DNA of 25,348 bases, taken from positions 1-25,348 of IMG/VR virus record IMGVR_UViG_3300025759_000638; one strand, 5' to 3'. A program made the translations under genes and the position numbers. The stretch comes from a virus. Below are positions 412-12,818 of this stretch, piece by piece (the first letter of the stretch is position 1; the number at the start of each line of letters is the position of its first letter). Under the pieces are notes generated by a model. That model made no database searches. It worked only from the letters and a program-made list of their open reading frames with translations, and had not been told where the DNA came from.

Positions 412-431
412 GATAGTAAGTGCTTACTATC
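412..431. promoter_or_regulatory. operator-like palindrome, left copy
   Basis: GATAGTAAG and CTTACTATC are perfect 9-bp arms around a 2-bp centre. The core AGTAAG..CTTACT recurs at 729-742, on the other side of the tandem repeats, so the two are probably sites for the same dimeric protein. Confidence 0.55.
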
Positions 432-497
432 GCTGCAGCGGGCGTTCAAATAGGAGACAAATGTCGAAAAGTTTTTTCATTAATTTGCAAATATGTA

Positions 498-526
498 TTG
501 ACAGACCCGCAAAAGTGTGTTATAAT
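498..526 (+). promoter_or_regulatory. consensus sigma70 promoter reading into the tandem repeats
   Basis: TTGACA (498-503), 17 bp, TATAAT (521-526): a full match to the sigma70 consensus. GGGCGCC follows immediately, as CGGCGCC follows the promoters at 92 and 1588. No gene follows. The transcript would cross the tandem repeats, so a primer or regulatory RNA is conceivable. Confidence 0.75.
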
Positions 527-545
527 GGGCGCCGCCGGCTTTGTA

Positions 546-669
546 GACTTCGCTTTGGCACTTCACTTTCGCACTTTGGCGCTGGAGACTTCGTTTTGGC
601 ACTTCACTTTTGCACTTCGGCGCATGGCGACATTCGTCACTTTATCACTTTAGCACTTTGGCGCAGAGC
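546..669. repeat. three tandem 41-42 bp repeats
   Basis: Units start at 546, 587 and 629, each with GACTTCG or a variant. Units 1 and 2 differ at few positions. Unit 3 is more diverged but keeps GCACTTTGGCGC at the same place. Within units a shorter CACTT motif recurs. Such iterons often bind a replication initiator or partition protein. The frame crossing them (462-733) is open and has an AGGAGACAA before its ATG, but it would span a consensus promoter and is rejected as coding. Confidence 0.8.
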
Positions 670-728
670 GTGTGAGATTCGACATCTGTCCCTTTATCTC
701 AAAAGCAACAAATGTCCAGATTTATGTA

Positions 729-742
729 AGTAAGCGCTTACT
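729..742. promoter_or_regulatory. operator-like palindrome, right copy
   Basis: AGTAAGCGCTTACT is a perfect 14-bp palindrome. It shares the core of the palindrome at 412-431, and the pair brackets the promoter and tandem repeats. Confidence 0.55.
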
Positions 743-769
743 AACCAAATTGTTCCACGAATGTTCCAT

Positions 770-799
770 TGTGGATAAGTCTGTGAATAGTGGGGATAA
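770..799 (-). other. cluster of three DnaA-box-like 9-mers
   Basis: TGTGGATAA (770-778) is the exact complement of the consensus DnaA box TTATCCACA. TGTGAATAG (782-790) and TGGGGATAA (791-799) are close variants in the same orientation. Two TGTTCCA motifs precede them (751 and 762). Three boxes within 30 bp are unlikely by chance in AT-rich DNA and support binding of host DnaA. Confidence 0.65.
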
Positions 800-807
800 C
801 TCGCCCT

Positions 808-835
808 CTCTCAAATTACCTAAGTAATTTGAGAG
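808..835. other. 12-bp perfect hairpin
   Basis: CTCTCAAATTAC, loop CTAA, GTAATTTGAGAG. No T-run follows on either strand, so it is not a canonical terminator. It lies between the DnaA boxes and the end of the leftward operon, and could slow leftward transcription or be part of the origin. Confidence 0.6.
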
Positions 836-6523: not shown

Positions 6524-6780
6524 TGGCAGAATTAATAGCAGAGTTCGGATTTCCAATTGTAGCAATGGTTGGACTAGGATATTTCGTATACTATGTATGG
6601 AGAACGATGATAGGAGTTATCGGTCCTGCAATCAAAGAGATGCATTTTGCACTTATAAAGTTAATCGATCAAATAAGAATGTTAGACAACGACATGATCA
6701 GGCTGCAGCAAAAAGTAAATACAATACTGCAAATGAAAGAAAATGAGAAAAAGCGTTCTACTACTACTAATCGCAAGTAG
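6523..6780 (+). CDS. small membrane protein, paralogue of the 5980 product, 85 aa
   Basis: Starts in a TAATG overlap. One membrane helix at residues 8-30 (FPIVAMVGLGYFVYYVWRTM) is followed by an amphipathic coil (LIKLIDQIRMLDNDMIRLQQ) and a basic tail. The IRMLDNDMIRLQQKV segment matches IKTMNNDMIRLDTSV of the 5980 product. It overlaps the signal peptide region of the first curlin gene by 38 bases, tying it to that operon. Confidence 0.6.
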   Translation: MAELIAEFGFPIVAMVGLGYFVYYVWRTMIGVIGPAIKEMHFALIKLIDQIRMLDNDMIRLQQKVNTILQMKENEKKRSTTTNRK

Positions 6781-7534
6781 CCTACAAGCAGACGATAACC
6801 ATGTACATATAGATCAATCTGGAGCAAATATGCAAATGGAAATTGATCAAATTGCAGGAACAATCAATAAAGTAGACCTTTCAATTGATGGTACTAGTAA
6901 CTCCCTCGACATTGATCAGTGGGGAAGTAATAACGAGGTATCATGGGTTGACTACTGGGGCTCGGGTGCGAGCTGGGGTGGAGACTTAGACGGAAACAAC
7001 AACTCACTTCATTTTTACCAGTATTGCTCACGAGGCGCTAACTGTGCTAAGAGTGATGTAGGCTTTCATGTATGGGGAGATAGAAATAATGTTCGTTGGG
7101 GTCAAGGTGGTATACTTGATGATATAGATGATACTACTTTTGGAAACGATGGCGATGAAGGTGGTGGATCAAAACTCAATCTTGATATTCACGGAAACGA
7201 CAACAAACTTGCAGGAGTACAAAGAAACGGAAGTGCAAACGTATGGAGTGGACACACTGCAACAATTTACTTATATTCAGACGATAATGAAGTATGGGTA
7301 AATCAAAATACAGATGGAGCAAAAACGTTTAGTCTAACAACAAATAATGATGAGAATAGTGTAAGTGTAGAACAGACAGGATATGCAGCACATACAGGAA
7401 CAATTACTTTAACAGGTAGTTCTCCAACAACATTAAATTTAACACAACAAAGCAATACAGCACAATCTTATAGTTTAACACAAAATTGTGTAACTATAGG
7501 CGGTTGCTCAGTATCAGTGACACAAGGACAATGA
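6743..7534 (+). CDS. secreted curlin-repeat protein (CsgA/CsgB-like), 263 aa
   Basis: A Sec signal peptide of 16 residues (MRKSVLLLLIASSLQA, cut before DD) is followed by spaced curlin-type repeats with Asn, Ile and Gln at fixed distances, such as HIDQSGANMQMEIDQIAG, NSLDIDQWGSNNEV and VSVEQTGYAAHTGTITLTG. In curli these strand-loop-strand units stack into an amyloid beta-solenoid. This protein is about 100 residues longer than E. coli CsgA, is rich in Asn, Asp, Gly and Trp, and ends with a possible disulfide (NCVTIGGC). The paralogue is at 8818. The csgF- and csgG-like genes directly after it identify the likely export route. Whether it polymerises is unknown. Confidence 0.8.
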   Translation: MRKSVLLLLIASSLQADDNHVHIDQSGANMQMEIDQIAGTINKVDLSIDGTSNSLDIDQWGSNNEVSWVDYWGSGASWGGDLDGNNNSLHFYQYCSRGANCAKSDVGFHVWGDRNNVRWGQGGILDDIDDTTFGNDGDEGGGSKLNLDIHGNDNKLAGVQRNGSANVWSGHTATIYLYSDDNEVWVNQNTDGAKTFSLTTNNDENSVSVEQTGYAAHTGTITLTGSSPTTLNLTQQSNTAQSYSLTQNCVTIGGCSVSVTQGQ

Positions 7535-7554
7535 AAGAAGAATTTGGAAGTGGA

Positions 7555-8040
7555 ATGAGCACTGCAGTAAAATACATAATTGCAGCTGGACTCATAGGAT
7601 TTTTACTAAACCAAGCATTATTTGCAGATGAAATGGTACACAAGTTCAAAAGTCCTTCCTTCAACGGTCAAGGCATTTCAGCACATTACCTAACAATCGA
7701 AAATCAAGAAACAAACAGACAAAATGAGATCAAACAAGCATTACAAGATGCACTAGAAGAAGCAGAAAGAGACGCACAGAATACAACTCTTGCAAGATTT
7801 ATTAAAAATTTAGAAAGTAGAATTTATTCACAACTTAGTAGAGATCTAGTTGATAATTTATTCGCAGATGGAATAGCAAGTGCAGCAACAGGAGTCATTG
7901 AACTTCAAGGTAACTATATAGAGTACTCAAGTGATGGAATCACTGTGACACTCAAAGTTACGGACAGTGAGGGAAATGTTACAGAGATCACAATACCTAT
8001 CGGTAGTTTCGGCGATTTCAGTCTTGATGGTGACGGCTAG
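7555..8040 (+). CDS. csgF: CsgF homologue, curli assembly factor, 161 aa
   Basis: The start at 7555 gives a clean signal peptide (STAVKYIIAAGLIGFLLNQA, cut after LFA at 24) with GGAAG upstream. An upstream ATG at 7531, in a CAATGA overlap with the curlin stop, is an alternative. The mature N-terminus has FKSPSFNGQG, matching the F.NP.FGG motif by which CsgF enters the CsgG pore. A helix (LARFIKNLESRIYSQLSRDL) and a C-terminal beta hairpin (NYIEYSSDGITVTLKVTD) also match E. coli CsgF in order. In curli, CsgF extends the CsgG channel and helps nucleation at the surface. Its end overlaps csgG by 65 bases. Confidence 0.85.
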   Translation: MSTAVKYIIAAGLIGFLLNQALFADEMVHKFKSPSFNGQGISAHYLTIENQETNRQNEIKQALQDALEEAERDAQNTTLARFIKNLESRIYSQLSRDLVDNLFADGIASAATGVIELQGNYIEYSSDGITVTLKVTDSEGNVTEITIPIGSFGDFSLDGDG

Positions 8041-8821
8041 CTGTATGCTGGCGCCTGGCAAAGATGTCAGAGATTTTATAAATAACAATCGTCATCTTAC
8101 TGTAGAAAACGTAGCTCAAGTAAGAGAGTTACATAACGAAGAACTATATGCAATTAAAAGAGTTTCTACACCCGCACCTGTAATAGCAATCTATAAGTTT
8201 CCAGACTTAACAGGGCAAAGAAAAAGTAATTCAACTTTTGCACTTTTTAGCACTGCAGTAACAATGGACCCTGCAAGTTTGCTTATTCGTGCATTTAAGC
8301 ATGCAGGAAATGGAAAGTTCTTTCGAGTAGTTGAAAGAGCTGGGTTAGATCATCTTACAAAAGAAAGACAACTTATTCGTTCTACTAGAAATAGTTTGAA
8401 TGAAAAAGAGCAAGTTCTGCCACTACTATTTGCAGGCTTGCTAATTGAAGGCGGTGTTATCGGGTATGACACCAATCTACGATCAGGAGGTATTGGAGCA
8501 AGGTATCTGGGTATTGGAGCTCAGAAACAATATCGTGAAGATACTGTATCAGTTTCAATTAGAACTATCTCAGTCTCATCTGGTGAAGTTTTAATGGAAG
8601 TACTTGTGACAAAGACTATTCTCTCGGTAGGAGTGTCACAGGATGTATTTAGGTTTATAGAACTTGGAACAGAATTAGTCGAAGTAGAAAATGGAGCAAC
8701 TAAGAACGAAAGTGTGACGATTGCTTTACAAAAAGCTTTAGAGACAGGAGTTTTACAAACAATCTATGAAGGGGAGAAAAAGGGGTACTGGAAAACAGCA
8801 CCCGCTGGGGAAGCACAATGA
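7976..8821 (+). CDS. csgG: CsgG homologue, outer-membrane lipoprotein pore, 281 aa
   Basis: The start at ATG 7976 follows GAGGG; a GTG at 7967 is possible. A lipoprotein signal ends in VTASC, with Cys23 to be acylated. The mature part follows E. coli CsgG closely in order: YKFPDLTGQ, FSTAV, ERQLIRSTR, IEGGVIGYDTNLRSGGIGAR, GIGAQKQY, SGEVL, TKTILS, VFRFIELGTEL and an ALETGV segment. CsgG forms a nonameric outer-membrane channel that secretes curlin subunits. Length fits the family (277 aa in E. coli). Its start region lies inside csgF in another frame, and its stop overlaps the next start (CAATGA). It is the strongest homology call in the operon. Confidence 0.92.
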   Translation: MLQRSQYLSVVSAISVLMVTASCMLAPGKDVRDFINNNRHLTVENVAQVRELHNEELYAIKRVSTPAPVIAIYKFPDLTGQRKSNSTFALFSTAVTMDPASLLIRAFKHAGNGKFFRVVERAGLDHLTKERQLIRSTRNSLNEKEQVLPLLFAGLLIEGGVIGYDTNLRSGGIGARYLGIGAQKQYREDTVSVSIRTISVSSGEVLMEVLVTKTILSVGVSQDVFRFIELGTELVEVENGATKNESVTIALQKALETGVLQTIYEGEKKGYWKTAPAGEAQ

Positions 8822-9570
8822 AATTAGTTGGAGCTAATTTAATACTAGTACTCATTGCAGTATTTACAATTTTTGCAAGTGCAGCTGACAATGAAGTATT
8901 TATAACACAGAGCGGTACGAATGCTCAAATAGAAATCGATCAGATTGGATCAGGAAACACTGTAGAAGGAAATGAAGCCGCAGGTTCAGAACCAATTAGT
9001 GATTTCAAATTAACAGGTAATTCACAAACGATTGATATTGATCAGGTTGGTGACAGTAACATTTTTAGAGGAGATATTGATTCCGATACTTTTACTGGTA
9101 ACTTTAGTTTTACTGGAGATAGTAATGAGTTTGACATTCAATTTGATCCAGCAGGAAGTTATATTTCTGATAATATTACAATGGATGTTACAATTACTGG
9201 AAGCTCAAATGATCTTACTGTAACAGTAGCAAATAATGATAGTGCAGCAAACTTAGATTATGATGCAGTTATTAGTGGTGATTACAATACTTGGGTTACT
9301 GCTATTGATTCAGATAACGTTACATTCAATGTGGATGTAAATGGAAGTAATGGTAGTATAGACTATGATGCAGATGGTTATGCTGTAAACTCAAGCGGAC
9401 ATACATTCATTTTAGATCAAGATGGAGATTATGTCGACTATGTAATCGATCAACAGTCAACAAGTGCTGTGGATTATTTAAACTTACAAATGACAACAAG
9501 TGGTACAAGTGGAAGCGAAGCAAATATTTGCGTTTATCAGTCTGATAACGCTACATCTACAAGCTGCTGA
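8818..9570 (+). CDS. second secreted curlin-repeat protein (CsgA/CsgB-like), 250 aa
   Basis: ATG in a CAATGA overlap with csgG; GGGGAAG upstream. The signal peptide is about 22 residues (cut in FASA/AD). The N-terminus FITQSGTNAQIEIDQIGSGN and then TIDIDQVGDSN parallel the first curlin protein almost position for position. The middle is a long series of Thr/Ser/Asn/Asp-rich strand repeats with few Gln, and the end has two Cys (NICVYQ and the last residue). One of the two proteins may nucleate the other, as CsgB does for CsgA; the sequence does not show which. Theoretically very acidic. Its 3' end encodes the start of the FecR gene in another frame. Confidence 0.8.
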   Translation: MKLVGANLILVLIAVFTIFASAADNEVFITQSGTNAQIEIDQIGSGNTVEGNEAAGSEPISDFKLTGNSQTIDIDQVGDSNIFRGDIDSDTFTGNFSFTGDSNEFDIQFDPAGSYISDNITMDVTITGSSNDLTVTVANNDSAANLDYDAVISGDYNTWVTAIDSDNVTFNVDVNGSNGSIDYDADGYAVNSSGHTFILDQDGDYVDYVIDQQSTSAVDYLNLQMTTSGTSGSEANICVYQSDNATSTSC

Positions 9571-10609
9571 TATAGGAAGCATAAGCGAACTAAAGGGTGA
9601 AGCTTCGGTCAATCGATCAGGCGAAGCCCTTACAGCCGCATTAGATTTAGGAGTTGAATCTTATGACGATGTTAGAACTGCTAATAGTAGGGTGGGTCTT
9701 ACTTTTATCGACGACTCTGTTGTGCGTCTTACTGAGCATTCGAAGCTTATACTTGACGAGGTTATATTTGATCCAGATCCTTCTAAGTCTAAGATTGGAC
9801 TTACTTTTGCTTCGGGAACAGCAAGATTTATTACAGGAAAAATAGGTGGAATTAATAAAGAAAATATCAAGATCAATACTCCGACTTCTCAAATCGGTAT
9901 TCGAGGAACTGACTTTACTGTTACTGTTGATGAGCTGGGTCGTAGCTTGGTTATTCTTCTACCTGATATCGATGGGATATCATCTGGCGAGATCACAGTG
10001 GAGACCGCAGCGGGATTGGTCATTCTTAACAAACCGTATGAAAGCACCACCACATCCGTCTGGGAAAGTTCACCAACGCAACCAGTAACACTCGATATCA
10101 CACTAGACTTAATTGACAATATGCTCATAGTAAATGAGCCAAAAGAAGAAGAAGTAGTAGAAGAAACAAATAATGTAAGAACTGGAGACTTACTTGATTT
10201 TAATGATTTAGACGTAGACCTACTTAATGAAGATGTGCTAGCAGAAGAAGATTTAGAATTTACAGAACTTGACATTAACTTTTTAGATGTTAACTTTTTC
10301 GAAGACTTACTTGAAGTCATAGAAGAAATAGATCGATTAAGAGAAGGAAACGAAAAAGATAAAAAGACAGCATCAGTAGGAAAAGCTACTATCGAGGGTA
10401 CAACGATTGGTCAAGATCCTACTACTCAAATTATTACTATAGTAGATACACAGAATATAAACATATCGAGACAAGTAAATGACTTTGCAAAAGTTCGACT
10501 TGACTCACAGGCAGGAGTAACTTTAATTATATCACAAGATGGAAAAGAATATAACATTATTATTAATAAAGGTGGGACTTCTAATATTATCATTAGACAG
10601 TCCAGCTAA
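9500..10609 (+). CDS. secreted FecR-domain protein, 369 aa
   Basis: GTG start (9500, or 9509), overlapping the curlin gene by 71 bases. A signal peptide of about 22 residues ends in LHLQA/AD. Residues about 25-185 form a FecR domain: GSISELKGEASVNR, a RVGLTFIDDSVVRL segment, and TPTSQIGIRGTDFTV, the family's most conserved motif. An unusually acidic, low-complexity stretch (about 213-285) follows, and then a beta-rich tail with NINISRQ and SNIIIRQ, which resemble single curlin half-repeats. FecR-domain proteins act in the periplasm as ligand-binding or signalling partners, and in bacteria they are often encoded beside CHASE2 cyclases, as here. It is not the sigma-regulator FecR itself, since no N-terminal cytoplasmic part is present. 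Confidence 0.8.
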   Translation: MVQVEAKQIFAFISLITLHLQAADIGSISELKGEASVNRSGEALTAALDLGVESYDDVRTANSRVGLTFIDDSVVRLTEHSKLILDEVIFDPDPSKSKIGLTFASGTARFITGKIGGINKENIKINTPTSQIGIRGTDFTVTVDELGRSLVILLPDIDGISSGEITVETAAGLVILNKPYESTTTSVWESSPTQPVTLDITLDLIDNMLIVNEPKEEEVVEETNNVRTGDLLDFNDLDVDLLNEDVLAEEDLEFTELDINFLDVNFFEDLLEVIEEIDRLREGNEKDKKTASVGKATIEGTTIGQDPTTQIITIVDTQNINISRQVNDFAKVRLDSQAGVTLIISQDGKEYNIIINKGGTSNIIIRQSS

Positions 10610-10919
10610 ATGGGAAGACTGGAACACTACAGATAAAAATCTATATAAAGCATACCTAATAGGAAGTGCTTTAGATTACATGCAAACAAAAAATGCATTA
10701 GATAATCATTATGTAGAAGGAAACCCTTTTCTAGGGAGATATCCTTCCTCTGAGCGAATTTTAGCACAGAAAGTTTTATCTGCGGGTGTCATGTATTGGA
10801 GTTTTAATAAATTAGACGAAAAACAAAAAAGAAGAGGACTATTTATAGTCAATGGAATACAATGGGGAGTCGTTTTAAAAAATGAAAGCGTTGGTGCTAC
10901 ATTTATTTATCGCTGGTAG
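10539..10919 (+). CDS. small secreted or membrane protein, 126 aa, unknown
   Basis: ATG 10539 overlaps the FecR gene by 71 bases; a GTG at 10572 is an alternative start. A hydrophobic N-terminus (NITLLLIKVGLLILSLDSPA) is signal-like. The rest has a moderately hydrophobic helical pattern with conserved-looking ALDYMQTKNALDN and EGNPFLGRYPS, then two weak membrane stretches. A D..T..AL....EANP.LG pattern is known from uncharacterised small bacterial membrane proteins; I cannot name the family with confidence. Its place between FecR and the lipoprotein makes it a likely accessory of the same system. Confidence 0.65.
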   Translation: MEKNITLLLIKVGLLILSLDSPAKWEDWNTTDKNLYKAYLIGSALDYMQTKNALDNHYVEGNPFLGRYPSSERILAQKVLSAGVMYWSFNKLDEKQKRRGLFIVNGIQWGVVLKNESVGATFIYRW

Positions 10920-11040
10920 TTTACTTACTGCTTGCAGTACTGTACCACGAGAACCTCAAGAAGATAAATGGGGTCAATGGGACTTCTGTGAGCAGTGGGC
11001 TTATGACGGCGAATCATGGATGCAATGTATGAACTCATGA
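10882..11040 (+). CDS. short lipoprotein, 52 aa
   Basis: An overlooked short gene. It has a type II signal peptide with a textbook lipobox LTAC (Cys18). The 35-residue mature part is rich in Trp, Gln and Glu and has two further Cys (FCEQWAYDGESWMQC) that could form a disulfide. The start overlaps the previous gene by 38 bases, and the stop overlaps the cyclase start (CATGA). It has the size of a phage Rz1-type spanin lipoprotein, but no Rz partner is adjacent. A role in anchoring or regulating the CsgG/FecR system is as likely. Confidence 0.7.
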   Translation: MKALVLHLFIAGSLLTACSTVPREPQEDKWGQWDFCEQWAYDGESWMQCMNS

Positions 11041-12818
11041 TTCGACTACTAATTGCTTCAGGACTTCTAGCACTTTTTATTTGGAATCCTTATCCACTAC
11101 AATATTTAGAACTCAAGAGTTATGATACTCTTATTATGTCAACAGAACCAGTACAAAATGAAAACATACTGATTGTTGATTTAGACGAAGACTTAGTAAA
11201 AGCCTATGAAGGTTATCCTTTACCGAGAAGTCTTTATGCGGAGCTGATTAGAAAAACAAACGCAGTTCCAGGGATCACAGTGTTGATGCCCGATCCTGAT
11301 ATAAGAGGAAAAGAAAATGATTTAACGCTGAGTAATGCCATGATGAATGTACCTACAGTACTCGCATCAGCAGCATCTACTCAATCGTCAAAAGAAAGCC
11401 TACATGTAGGCACAGCACAATTAGGAGGTGATCCACTACCATGGCTATACGAATATCCAGGAATTTTACGTACAGAGTCTACTCTGGAGTTAAGCAGAAA
11501 GGGGCTAGGGCTGATAACCGCTACGCCGGAAATAGACGGGGTTACTCGTCGTATTCCCCTAGTCGTAAACGTCCAGTCAAAACTTTACCCAGCTTTCGGC
11601 TTGGAACTCTTAAGACTCGCAGTAAACGATCCTTCGTACCAGCTAAAAACAACACAAGAAGGTATTAGTTGGATAAGGGTACCTAGTTACCCTCTAATGA
11701 ATACCGACGCTAACGCTCGTATCTTTTTAGACTGGAATACGAACTTCTATAAACAAACAGGATTAGAGTTTTTAACCAATCCCATCGACGCACCTTTTGT
11801 TATCTTCGGCGTGACAGCAGAAGGTGTCGTCAATCCAACTCCAACTCCAGCAGGGTTGAAGTACCCACATGAAATACAAGCTAACATTTTACATAATCTT
11901 ATTAACGGTAGTGCTCCTTCCACTCCTACTTGGGCTGGTGGATCAGAGTTACTGGGAGGATTACTCGCAATATCTATTATTGCACTCACAGCATCCTATG
12001 TCTGGCTTAGCTTACCCACATTAATTATACTTATAGCTGGGTTACTATATGGAGCCTGGTATGCGTTTCAATCTTCTTATTTGATAGACGTCAGCGGGAT
12101 TATTTTAATCTCGTTTTTATTCTGGAGTATTGAAAGTTTCCGTAATTTCATTACGCAGTATTTGCTGAGATTACAAATTAAACAACAATTCGGAACGTAT
12201 GTATCTCCCGACCTTGTAAAAAAATTACAGGAGGACCCAACGTTACTGAGATTGGGTGGGGAGACGAAACGACTTACTTTTCTTTTTTCAGATATTCGAG
12301 GATTCACACCAATTTCTGAAAAATACCAAAAAGATCCACAAGGTCTTACAAAATTAATCAACCGATTTTTGGATAATCAAACAGAAATCATACTAAAACA
12401 TGGCGGAACCATAGATAAATACATGGGAGATTGTATTATGGCTTTCTGGAACGCACCACTTGACATCGATGATCAAGAAAGAAAGGCTACAGAGTGTGTA
12501 CTCGAGATGCGAGAGGCACTAGGAGAATTAAATGAAAAACTTAAAGAAGAAAATCTTGACCAAATTAATACAGGAGCAGGAATTAATACTGGCTTATGTG
12601 TCGTTGGTAACTTTGGTAGTAGTAGTCGTTTTGATTACTCTGTCTTAGGAGATTCTGTAAACTTAGCTGCTCGACTAGAGTCCTCATGTAAGAACTACGA
12701 TGTCGATCTTGTCATATCTGAGTACAGTTTAGTTGACGGATATGACTACGAGTTCTTAGACGAAGTAACGGTAAAAGGCAAATCCGAACCAGTCAAAATA
12801 TATACCATCAGAAAATAA
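11037..12818 (+). CDS. CHASE2-class III adenylate/guanylate cyclase, 593 aa
   Basis: The start is in an ATGA overlap (an ATG at 11016 would add 7 residues, and the numbering here uses that 600-aa form). After an N-terminal membrane helix comes a CHASE2 sensor domain (about 35-300, periplasmic), then three membrane helices (about 310-370), then a class III cyclase domain (418-600). Metal-binding Asp426 (FLFSDIRGF) and Asp472 (IDKYMGD), base-binding Lys468, and transition-state Asn549 and Arg553 (GDSVNLAAR) are all present, so it should be active. Lys468 with Ser542 suggests ATP as substrate. It would sense a periplasmic signal, perhaps via the FecR protein, and make cAMP in the host. It is the last gene of the operon; a promoter follows four bases later. 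Confidence 0.9.
   Translation: MIRLLIASGLLALFIWNPYPLQYLELKSYDTLIMSTEPVQNENILIVDLDEDLVKAYEGYPLPRSLYAELIRKTNAVPGITVLMPDPDIRGKENDLTLSNAMMNVPTVLASAASTQSSKESLHVGTAQLGGDPLPWLYEYPGILRTESTLELSRKGLGLITATPEIDGVTRRIPLVVNVQSKLYPAFGLELLRLAVNDPSYQLKTTQEGISWIRVPSYPLMNTDANARIFLDWNTNFYKQTGLEFLTNPIDAPFVIFGVTAEGVVNPTPTPAGLKYPHEIQANILHNLINGSAPSTPTWAGGSELLGGLLAISIIALTASYVWLSLPTLIILIAGLLYGAWYAFQSSYLIDVSGIILISFLFWSIESFRNFITQYLLRLQIKQQFGTYVSPDLVKKLQEDPTLLRLGGETKRLTFLFSDIRGFTPISEKYQKDPQGLTKLINRFLDNQTEIILKHGGTIDKYMGDCIMAFWNAPLDIDDQERKATECVLEMREALGELNEKLKEENLDQINTGAGINTGLCVVGNFGSSSRFDYSVLGDSVNLAARLESSCKNYDVDLVISEYSLVDGYDYEFLDEVTVKGKSEPVKIYTIRK

Follow-up and report, generated by a model that had tools for sequence, protein, structure and literature searches.

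A probable counterpart of the T5 iss, with predicted DnaA, Fur and LexA sites, in a marine T5-like phage branch

A T5-like phage fragment and its gene neighbourhood

The stretch of DNA analysed here (the window, a 25.3-kb virus fragment) carries small and large terminase, portal and head genes that are T5-like in protein comparisons. The terminase large subunit is approximately 49% identical to its counterparts in T5-like phages of Vibrio, Klebsiella and Providencia, and the small subunit reaches approximately 40% with T5-like phages. These protein relationships mark the window as part of the genome of a marine T5-like (Demerecviridae-like) phage. A region with several kinds of non-coding element, examined more widely at positions 375–1770 and termed iss-like here after the DNA injection stop signal (iss) of phage T5, was compared with 52 related contigs and, later, with a 104-kb relative (G026), with the nearest relative (L003) serving as the reference for conservation footprints. 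These relatives encode a T5-type replisome (DNA polymerase, primase, DnaB-like helicase and ligase), as well as SbcCD-like proteins and D5, and their iss-like region is flanked by A2/D5-like and dmp/HAD-like genes, kin of the T5 pre-early genes (the A2-like match possibly being a domain shared with D5). No dmp gene was found in the window, which stops short of A2. Terminase relatives in GTDB bins came mostly from gammaproteobacterial metagenome-assembled genomes (including Porticoccaceae and Halieaceae), with one Bacteroidetes and one Parcubacteria bin in the same listing, and the host signal is weak.

Near the start of the window, a small plus-strand gene encoding 50 amino acids (219–371; weak match to phrog_14101, E = 0.0033) accompanies the region in relatives, being 68% identical in the 104-kb relative, and is directly followed by an intrinsic terminator on the same strand (375–396). 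On the far side of the region, between the small and large terminase genes, lies a curli-like cassette (6743–12818) with CsgF (7486–8040), CsgG (7967–8821), FecR (9500–10609) and CHASE2-cyclase (11016–12818) genes, along with two open reading frames (6743–7534 and 8818–9570) whose weak matches to curlin repeats fall below the Pfam cut-off; phage curli operons have csgGF, without csgA and csgB (PMC9004378).

Of the 52 related contigs, 20 break off in the first 1 kb upstream of the small terminase gene, and the 1 kb downstream contains no contig end, a distribution expected of either a variable region or a nearby genome end. It could be taken to place a packaging or genome-end site (pac/cos, or the boundary of a terminal repeat) at the region, which we regard as very unlikely: the contig ends are scattered over 0–2 kb and lie nearer to the terminase than to the iss-like region, and strain variability would also break assemblies. 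As for a long direct terminal repeat, within which a T5-type iss would lie, the ends of the 104-kb relative are alike (78%) over 0.86 kb only.

Repeats, palindromes, promoters and DnaA boxes

The initial annotation of this DNA had described tandem 41–42-bp repeats between two related AGTAAG/CTTACT palindromes, a consensus promoter reading into the repeats and, further on, a perfect DnaA box with two variants and a 12-bp hairpin; each of these elements was recovered. Two good repeat units of 36 nt (unit 1, ACTTCGCTTTGGCACTTCACTTTCGCACTTTGGCGC, 547–582; unit 2, 588–623) and a degenerate third (639–664) lie on the plus strand, the first two spaced 41 bp apart and 85–90% identical. In relatives, the units form two blocks upstream of the small terminase gene, and they were not found elsewhere in the sequence searched. 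With 45–50% GC, they are GC-richer than their surroundings; AT-rich stretches occur near 470–525 and 1440–1620. The open reading frame at 410–733 was considered as coding sequence and rejected: its frame is broken by stops in the nearest relative and it is unconserved and without a homologue, and we therefore take the stretch over the repeats as non-coding. A structured RNA was likewise rejected, as the repeats folded worse than shuffled versions (z = +1.45) and Rfam gave no match.

Both palindromes are strand-neutral: palindrome 1 (GATAGTAAGTGCTTACTATC, 413–432) has its core (AGTAAGTGCTTACT) at 415–428, and the related palindrome 2 (AGTAAGCGCTTACT) lies at 729–742. A scan of the window found no further match with fewer than three mismatches beyond these two. 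Palindrome 1 is 100% identical in the nearest relative, and the block surrounding palindrome 2 is unconserved (32% identity). Across 22 marine loci, the AGTAAG palindrome motif occurred 7 times in the 9 kb upstream of the small terminase gene (hereafter the zone), twice elsewhere and 0.37 times in shuffled sequence. Altered forms of palindrome 1 reappear in the same zone of six relatives, the nearest and the 104-kb relative among them.

Three predicted plus-strand promoters share a GGCGCC start, a combination of promoter and start that within the window occurs only in this region: P1 (92–127; TTGACC-17-TAAAAT, then GGCGCC), P2 (498–533; the sigma70 consensus TTGACA-17-TATAAT with the GC-rich start GGGCGCC) and P3 (1588–1625; TTGACA-18-TAAAAT-CGGCGCC). 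P2, which reads into the repeats, scores 12/12 against the consensus in its hexamers (498–526) and has a TG before the −10 element; its counterpart of the stretch upstream of P1 (49–96) is 71% identical to that stretch. P3 is conserved upstream of a Fur box in marine relatives. Such GC-rich promoter starts may resemble those of ribosomal RNA promoters. Further along, a strand-neutral inverted repeat with 19-bp arms (1698–1752) holds the −10 element of a predicted minus-strand promoter (1770–1742), and the sequence from 1651 to 1752 is 98% identical in the nearest relative. Palindromic promoters of this kind are also found in the 104-kb relative and in one other.

The DnaA boxes form a minus-strand cluster (TGTGGATAAGTCTGTGAATAGTGGGGATAA, 770–799) comprising a perfect box (TTATCCACA, 770–778), a box with two mismatches (CTATTCACA, 782–790) and one with a single mismatch (TTATCCCCA, 791–799), at spacings of 12 and 9 bp on one strand. 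One perfect box per 25 kb says little by itself; we consider the boxes to exceed chance because the block that holds them (766–801) is 97% identical in the nearest relative, compared with only 32–44% for the flanks (666–764), and because boxes spaced by 11–12 bp turn up repeatedly as pairs in relatives, where 347 kb of Markov sequence would be expected to yield 0.05. The window itself gave no match in a strict test for such pairs, its second box having two mismatches. DnaA binding at the cluster is plausible. The hairpin that follows (808–835) has fully complementary 12-nt arms (808–819 and 824–835; 12/12) around a 4-nt loop; its exact sequence is unconserved in the nearest relative, where a different but likewise self-complementary hairpin takes its position.

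The same annotation had read the ensemble as an origin-like region, more plasmid-like than is usual for a lytic phage and perhaps indicative of an extrachromosomal phase. What stands of this is that the region is non-coding and structured, and that DnaA boxes occur in it together with palindromes and repeats; a plasmid-type origin and an extrachromosomal phase are unsupported. An iteron origin maintaining an extrachromosomal prophage state would fit the tandem 41-bp repeats adjoining DnaA boxes, as in plasmid iteron origins, but is extremely improbable here. No gene near the repeats matched a plasmid initiator in Pfam or PHROGs, and the region differs from plasmid iteron origins in having no Rep gene, in its GC-rich repeats and in belonging to a phage group with its own, T5-type replisome. 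Plasmid records gave no megablast match, only distant capsid/protease matches and hence no close plasmid kin, and the phage belongs to a lytic T5-like group, which argues against an extrachromosomal phase.

An origin of the phage chromosome assisted by DnaA is a separate proposal, in which DnaA bound at 770–799 would open the DNA, transcription from P2 through the repeats would prime synthesis and the phage replisome would take over. It draws on the head-to-tail DnaA boxes 11–12 bp apart in several relatives, on the consensus promoter reading into the repeats and on a cumulative GC-skew minimum near the region in three long relatives, including the 104-kb one. However, the skew follows gene orientation and lends no separate weight to an origin: in T5 and in Vibrio phage vB_VpS_PG07 (PG07; MH645904), genes keep their strand across the iss and the skew does not flip there, and because no flip occurs without a strand switch, we read the skew as gene orientation, a judgement made by analogy with these two phages rather than in the window's own genome. 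Moreover, the repeats themselves are GC-rich relative to their surroundings rather than an AT-rich unwinding element (the AT-rich stretches lie elsewhere in the region), the DnaA boxes, promoter and repeats follow one another in a different order in different relatives, and this proposal, which we hold to be unlikely, leaves the Fur and LexA boxes described below unaccounted for.

Fur and LexA boxes across T5-like loci

Just downstream of P3 lies a predicted, perfect 19-bp Fur box (AATGAGAATCATTCTCATT, 1629–1647) that is 100% identical in the nearest relative and matches exactly the published Vibrionaceae Fur consensus (AATGANAATNATTNTCATT; PMC5511505). A 19-bp consensus thus adjoins a promoter, the arrangement of a Fur operator, and occupation of the box by iron-loaded Fur at the start of P3 would make this promoter repressible. 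A predicted LexA-type box (TATTGTATAAATATACAGTA, 1504–1523; two mismatches to TACTGTATATATATACAGTA) is 85% identical in the nearest relative.

Within the 22 marine loci, Fur boxes with up to two mismatches numbered 22 in the zone and 1 elsewhere (shuffled mean, 0.33), and LexA boxes, confined to 3 of the 22 loci, numbered 3 in the zone, 0 elsewhere and 0.00 in shuffled sequence. Most of the 24 other regulator consensi scanned were near the shuffle level, with PhoP-type half-site repeats mildly raised (9 versus 2.4); for every regulator except Fur, a presumed consensus was used. Approximately 17 of 27 Fur sites in the marine loci belong to a unit of promoter plus Fur box with near-fixed spacing, and when the sites are aligned they have in common a 19-bp core equal to the Vibrionaceae consensus, an identity that is partly a product of selection, as many of the aligned sites were gathered with the Fur pattern itself. 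The Fur palindrome was also considered as a mere RNA hairpin and rejected, its outer flanks being paired in 79% of cells versus 74% in shuffles, a weak difference.

Both kinds of box extend beyond the marine branch. In 24 of 25 close T5-like loci, the iss stretch holds both a LexA box and Fur boxes (up to one mismatch), and many of these loci have a second LexA box nearer to A1; neither box was found in the 25th locus or in six more distant A1-bearing loci. Among the matches listed from a scan of IMG/VR with the perfect Fur box, approximately 30 of 79 new loci encode T5-like or A2/dmp-like proteins, some of them assigned by weak terminase matches only. In the open literature searched, a body of work outside which key older T5 papers fall, we came across no description of the T5 iss as containing Fur or LexA sites.

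The multiplicity of sites, each T5-like genome carrying several for Fur and for DnaA, would suit a sponge, in which the sites titrate DnaA, Fur or LexA of the host after phage replication. However, a single Fur box is all that many marine relatives retain, and its usual place at the start of a promoter is more in keeping with an operator; we consider such a sponge quite unlikely. In seven loci, the promoter with its Fur box tends to face a dmp-like or A2-like gene that lies on the other strand, and a transcript from the Fur-box promoter could run antisense to that gene.

A probable variant of the iss in phages lacking A1

The region in the window is non-coding, combines a terminator and DnaA boxes with palindromes and with direct and inverted repeats, and lies between early genes and terminase, as the T5 iss does. 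The T5 iss likewise has repeats, inverted repeats, palindromes and DnaA boxes and is thought to contact host components (PMC13250531, 2026); its function in T5 is taken here from the literature. Judged by sequence and position, we read the region as iss-like, in a variant form belonging to the A1-lacking marine branch.

Searches for A1 with the T5 protein and the phrog_1745 profile recovered the gene in PG07 and two further records, which served as positives, and found none in the window, in the records of 25 relatives or in 13 further records; these negative records are fragments, but one of them is the 104-kb relative. A1 is essential for second-step DNA transfer in T5, and its absence from these records makes T5-style two-step entry uncertain in the marine branch. 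This bears on a stricter form of our explanation, a literal T5-type transfer stop at which DNA entry pauses and resumes once early proteins have been made. The components and map position of the region are those of the T5 iss, and A2-like and dmp-like genes adjoin it in relatives; against this stand the missing A1 and a layout in which early genes and terminase lie on opposite sides of the region, in place of a 10-kb pre-early block. A literal stop is thus possible but doubtful.

We consider it probable that the region is the counterpart of the T5 iss in a marine, A1-lacking T5-like branch, where it would act as a variant docking and control platform. The sites themselves, with their enrichment, location and conservation, are observed; protein binding to them, gating and any effect on DNA entry are what this arrangement may imply. 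The platform would lie between the early genes and the terminase and late genes, offering sites to abundant DNA-binding proteins of the host (DnaA, Fur and, probably, LexA) next to strong host sigma70 promoters whose starts are GC-rich. Once the region reached the cytoplasm, host DnaA, LexA and Fur would bind and host RNA polymerase would load on P1–P3, and the resulting nucleoprotein complex might delay or gate further transfer and/or transcription until host regulation was overridden. Much more tentatively, T5-like phages in general may have an iss with conserved DnaA, LexA and Fur sites, and the A1-less marine branch a promoter switch controlled by Fur, such that entry or early expression would read the iron, DNA-damage and replication state of the host.

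How T5 DNA entry stops and restarts has been an open question for decades. The recurrence of Fur and LexA boxes next to the known DnaA boxes, in T5 relatives as well as in a distant marine branch, points to particular host proteins as candidates, and a branch that keeps the region without A1 offers a natural experiment on the role of the region without second-step transfer.

The annotated T5 iss (AY543070, 9140–10149) has a terminator near its start (9275–9296), after small plus-strand genes, and its sequence contains CTGGGGATAAGTCTGTTGATAAC, CTGTTGATAAGTCTGTGGATAAC, a LexA box (TACTGTATAAATATACAGTA), repeated AATGAGAATCATT boxes and then TGTGCAAATCCGAC repeats. The window region resembles it in being non-coding, with a terminator after a small plus-strand gene, direct repeats and palindromes; in its head-to-tail DnaA boxes (reading TGTGGATAAGTCTGTGAATAGTGGGGATAAC in the window and sharing GATAAGTCTGT with T5); in its LexA box; and in its Fur box, Fur boxes being present in T5 as well, where AATGAGAATCATT recurs. 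It differs in the GGCGC-start promoters inside it, in the sequences of its repeats, in usually having no array of Fur boxes but one or two, and in the lack of an A1 gene. In PG07, the equivalent of the iss is a gap at approximately 109.6–111.1 kb between pre-early and early genes; PG07 differs from the marine branch in having A1 and dmp, other repeat sequences and co-oriented flanking gene blocks, yet its gap likewise holds a terminator, three perfect head-to-tail DnaA boxes, a LexA box, multiple Fur boxes and direct repeats. Compared with the Fur box of Vibrionaceae, the copy in the window is a putative site carried by a phage and placed just after one of its promoters.
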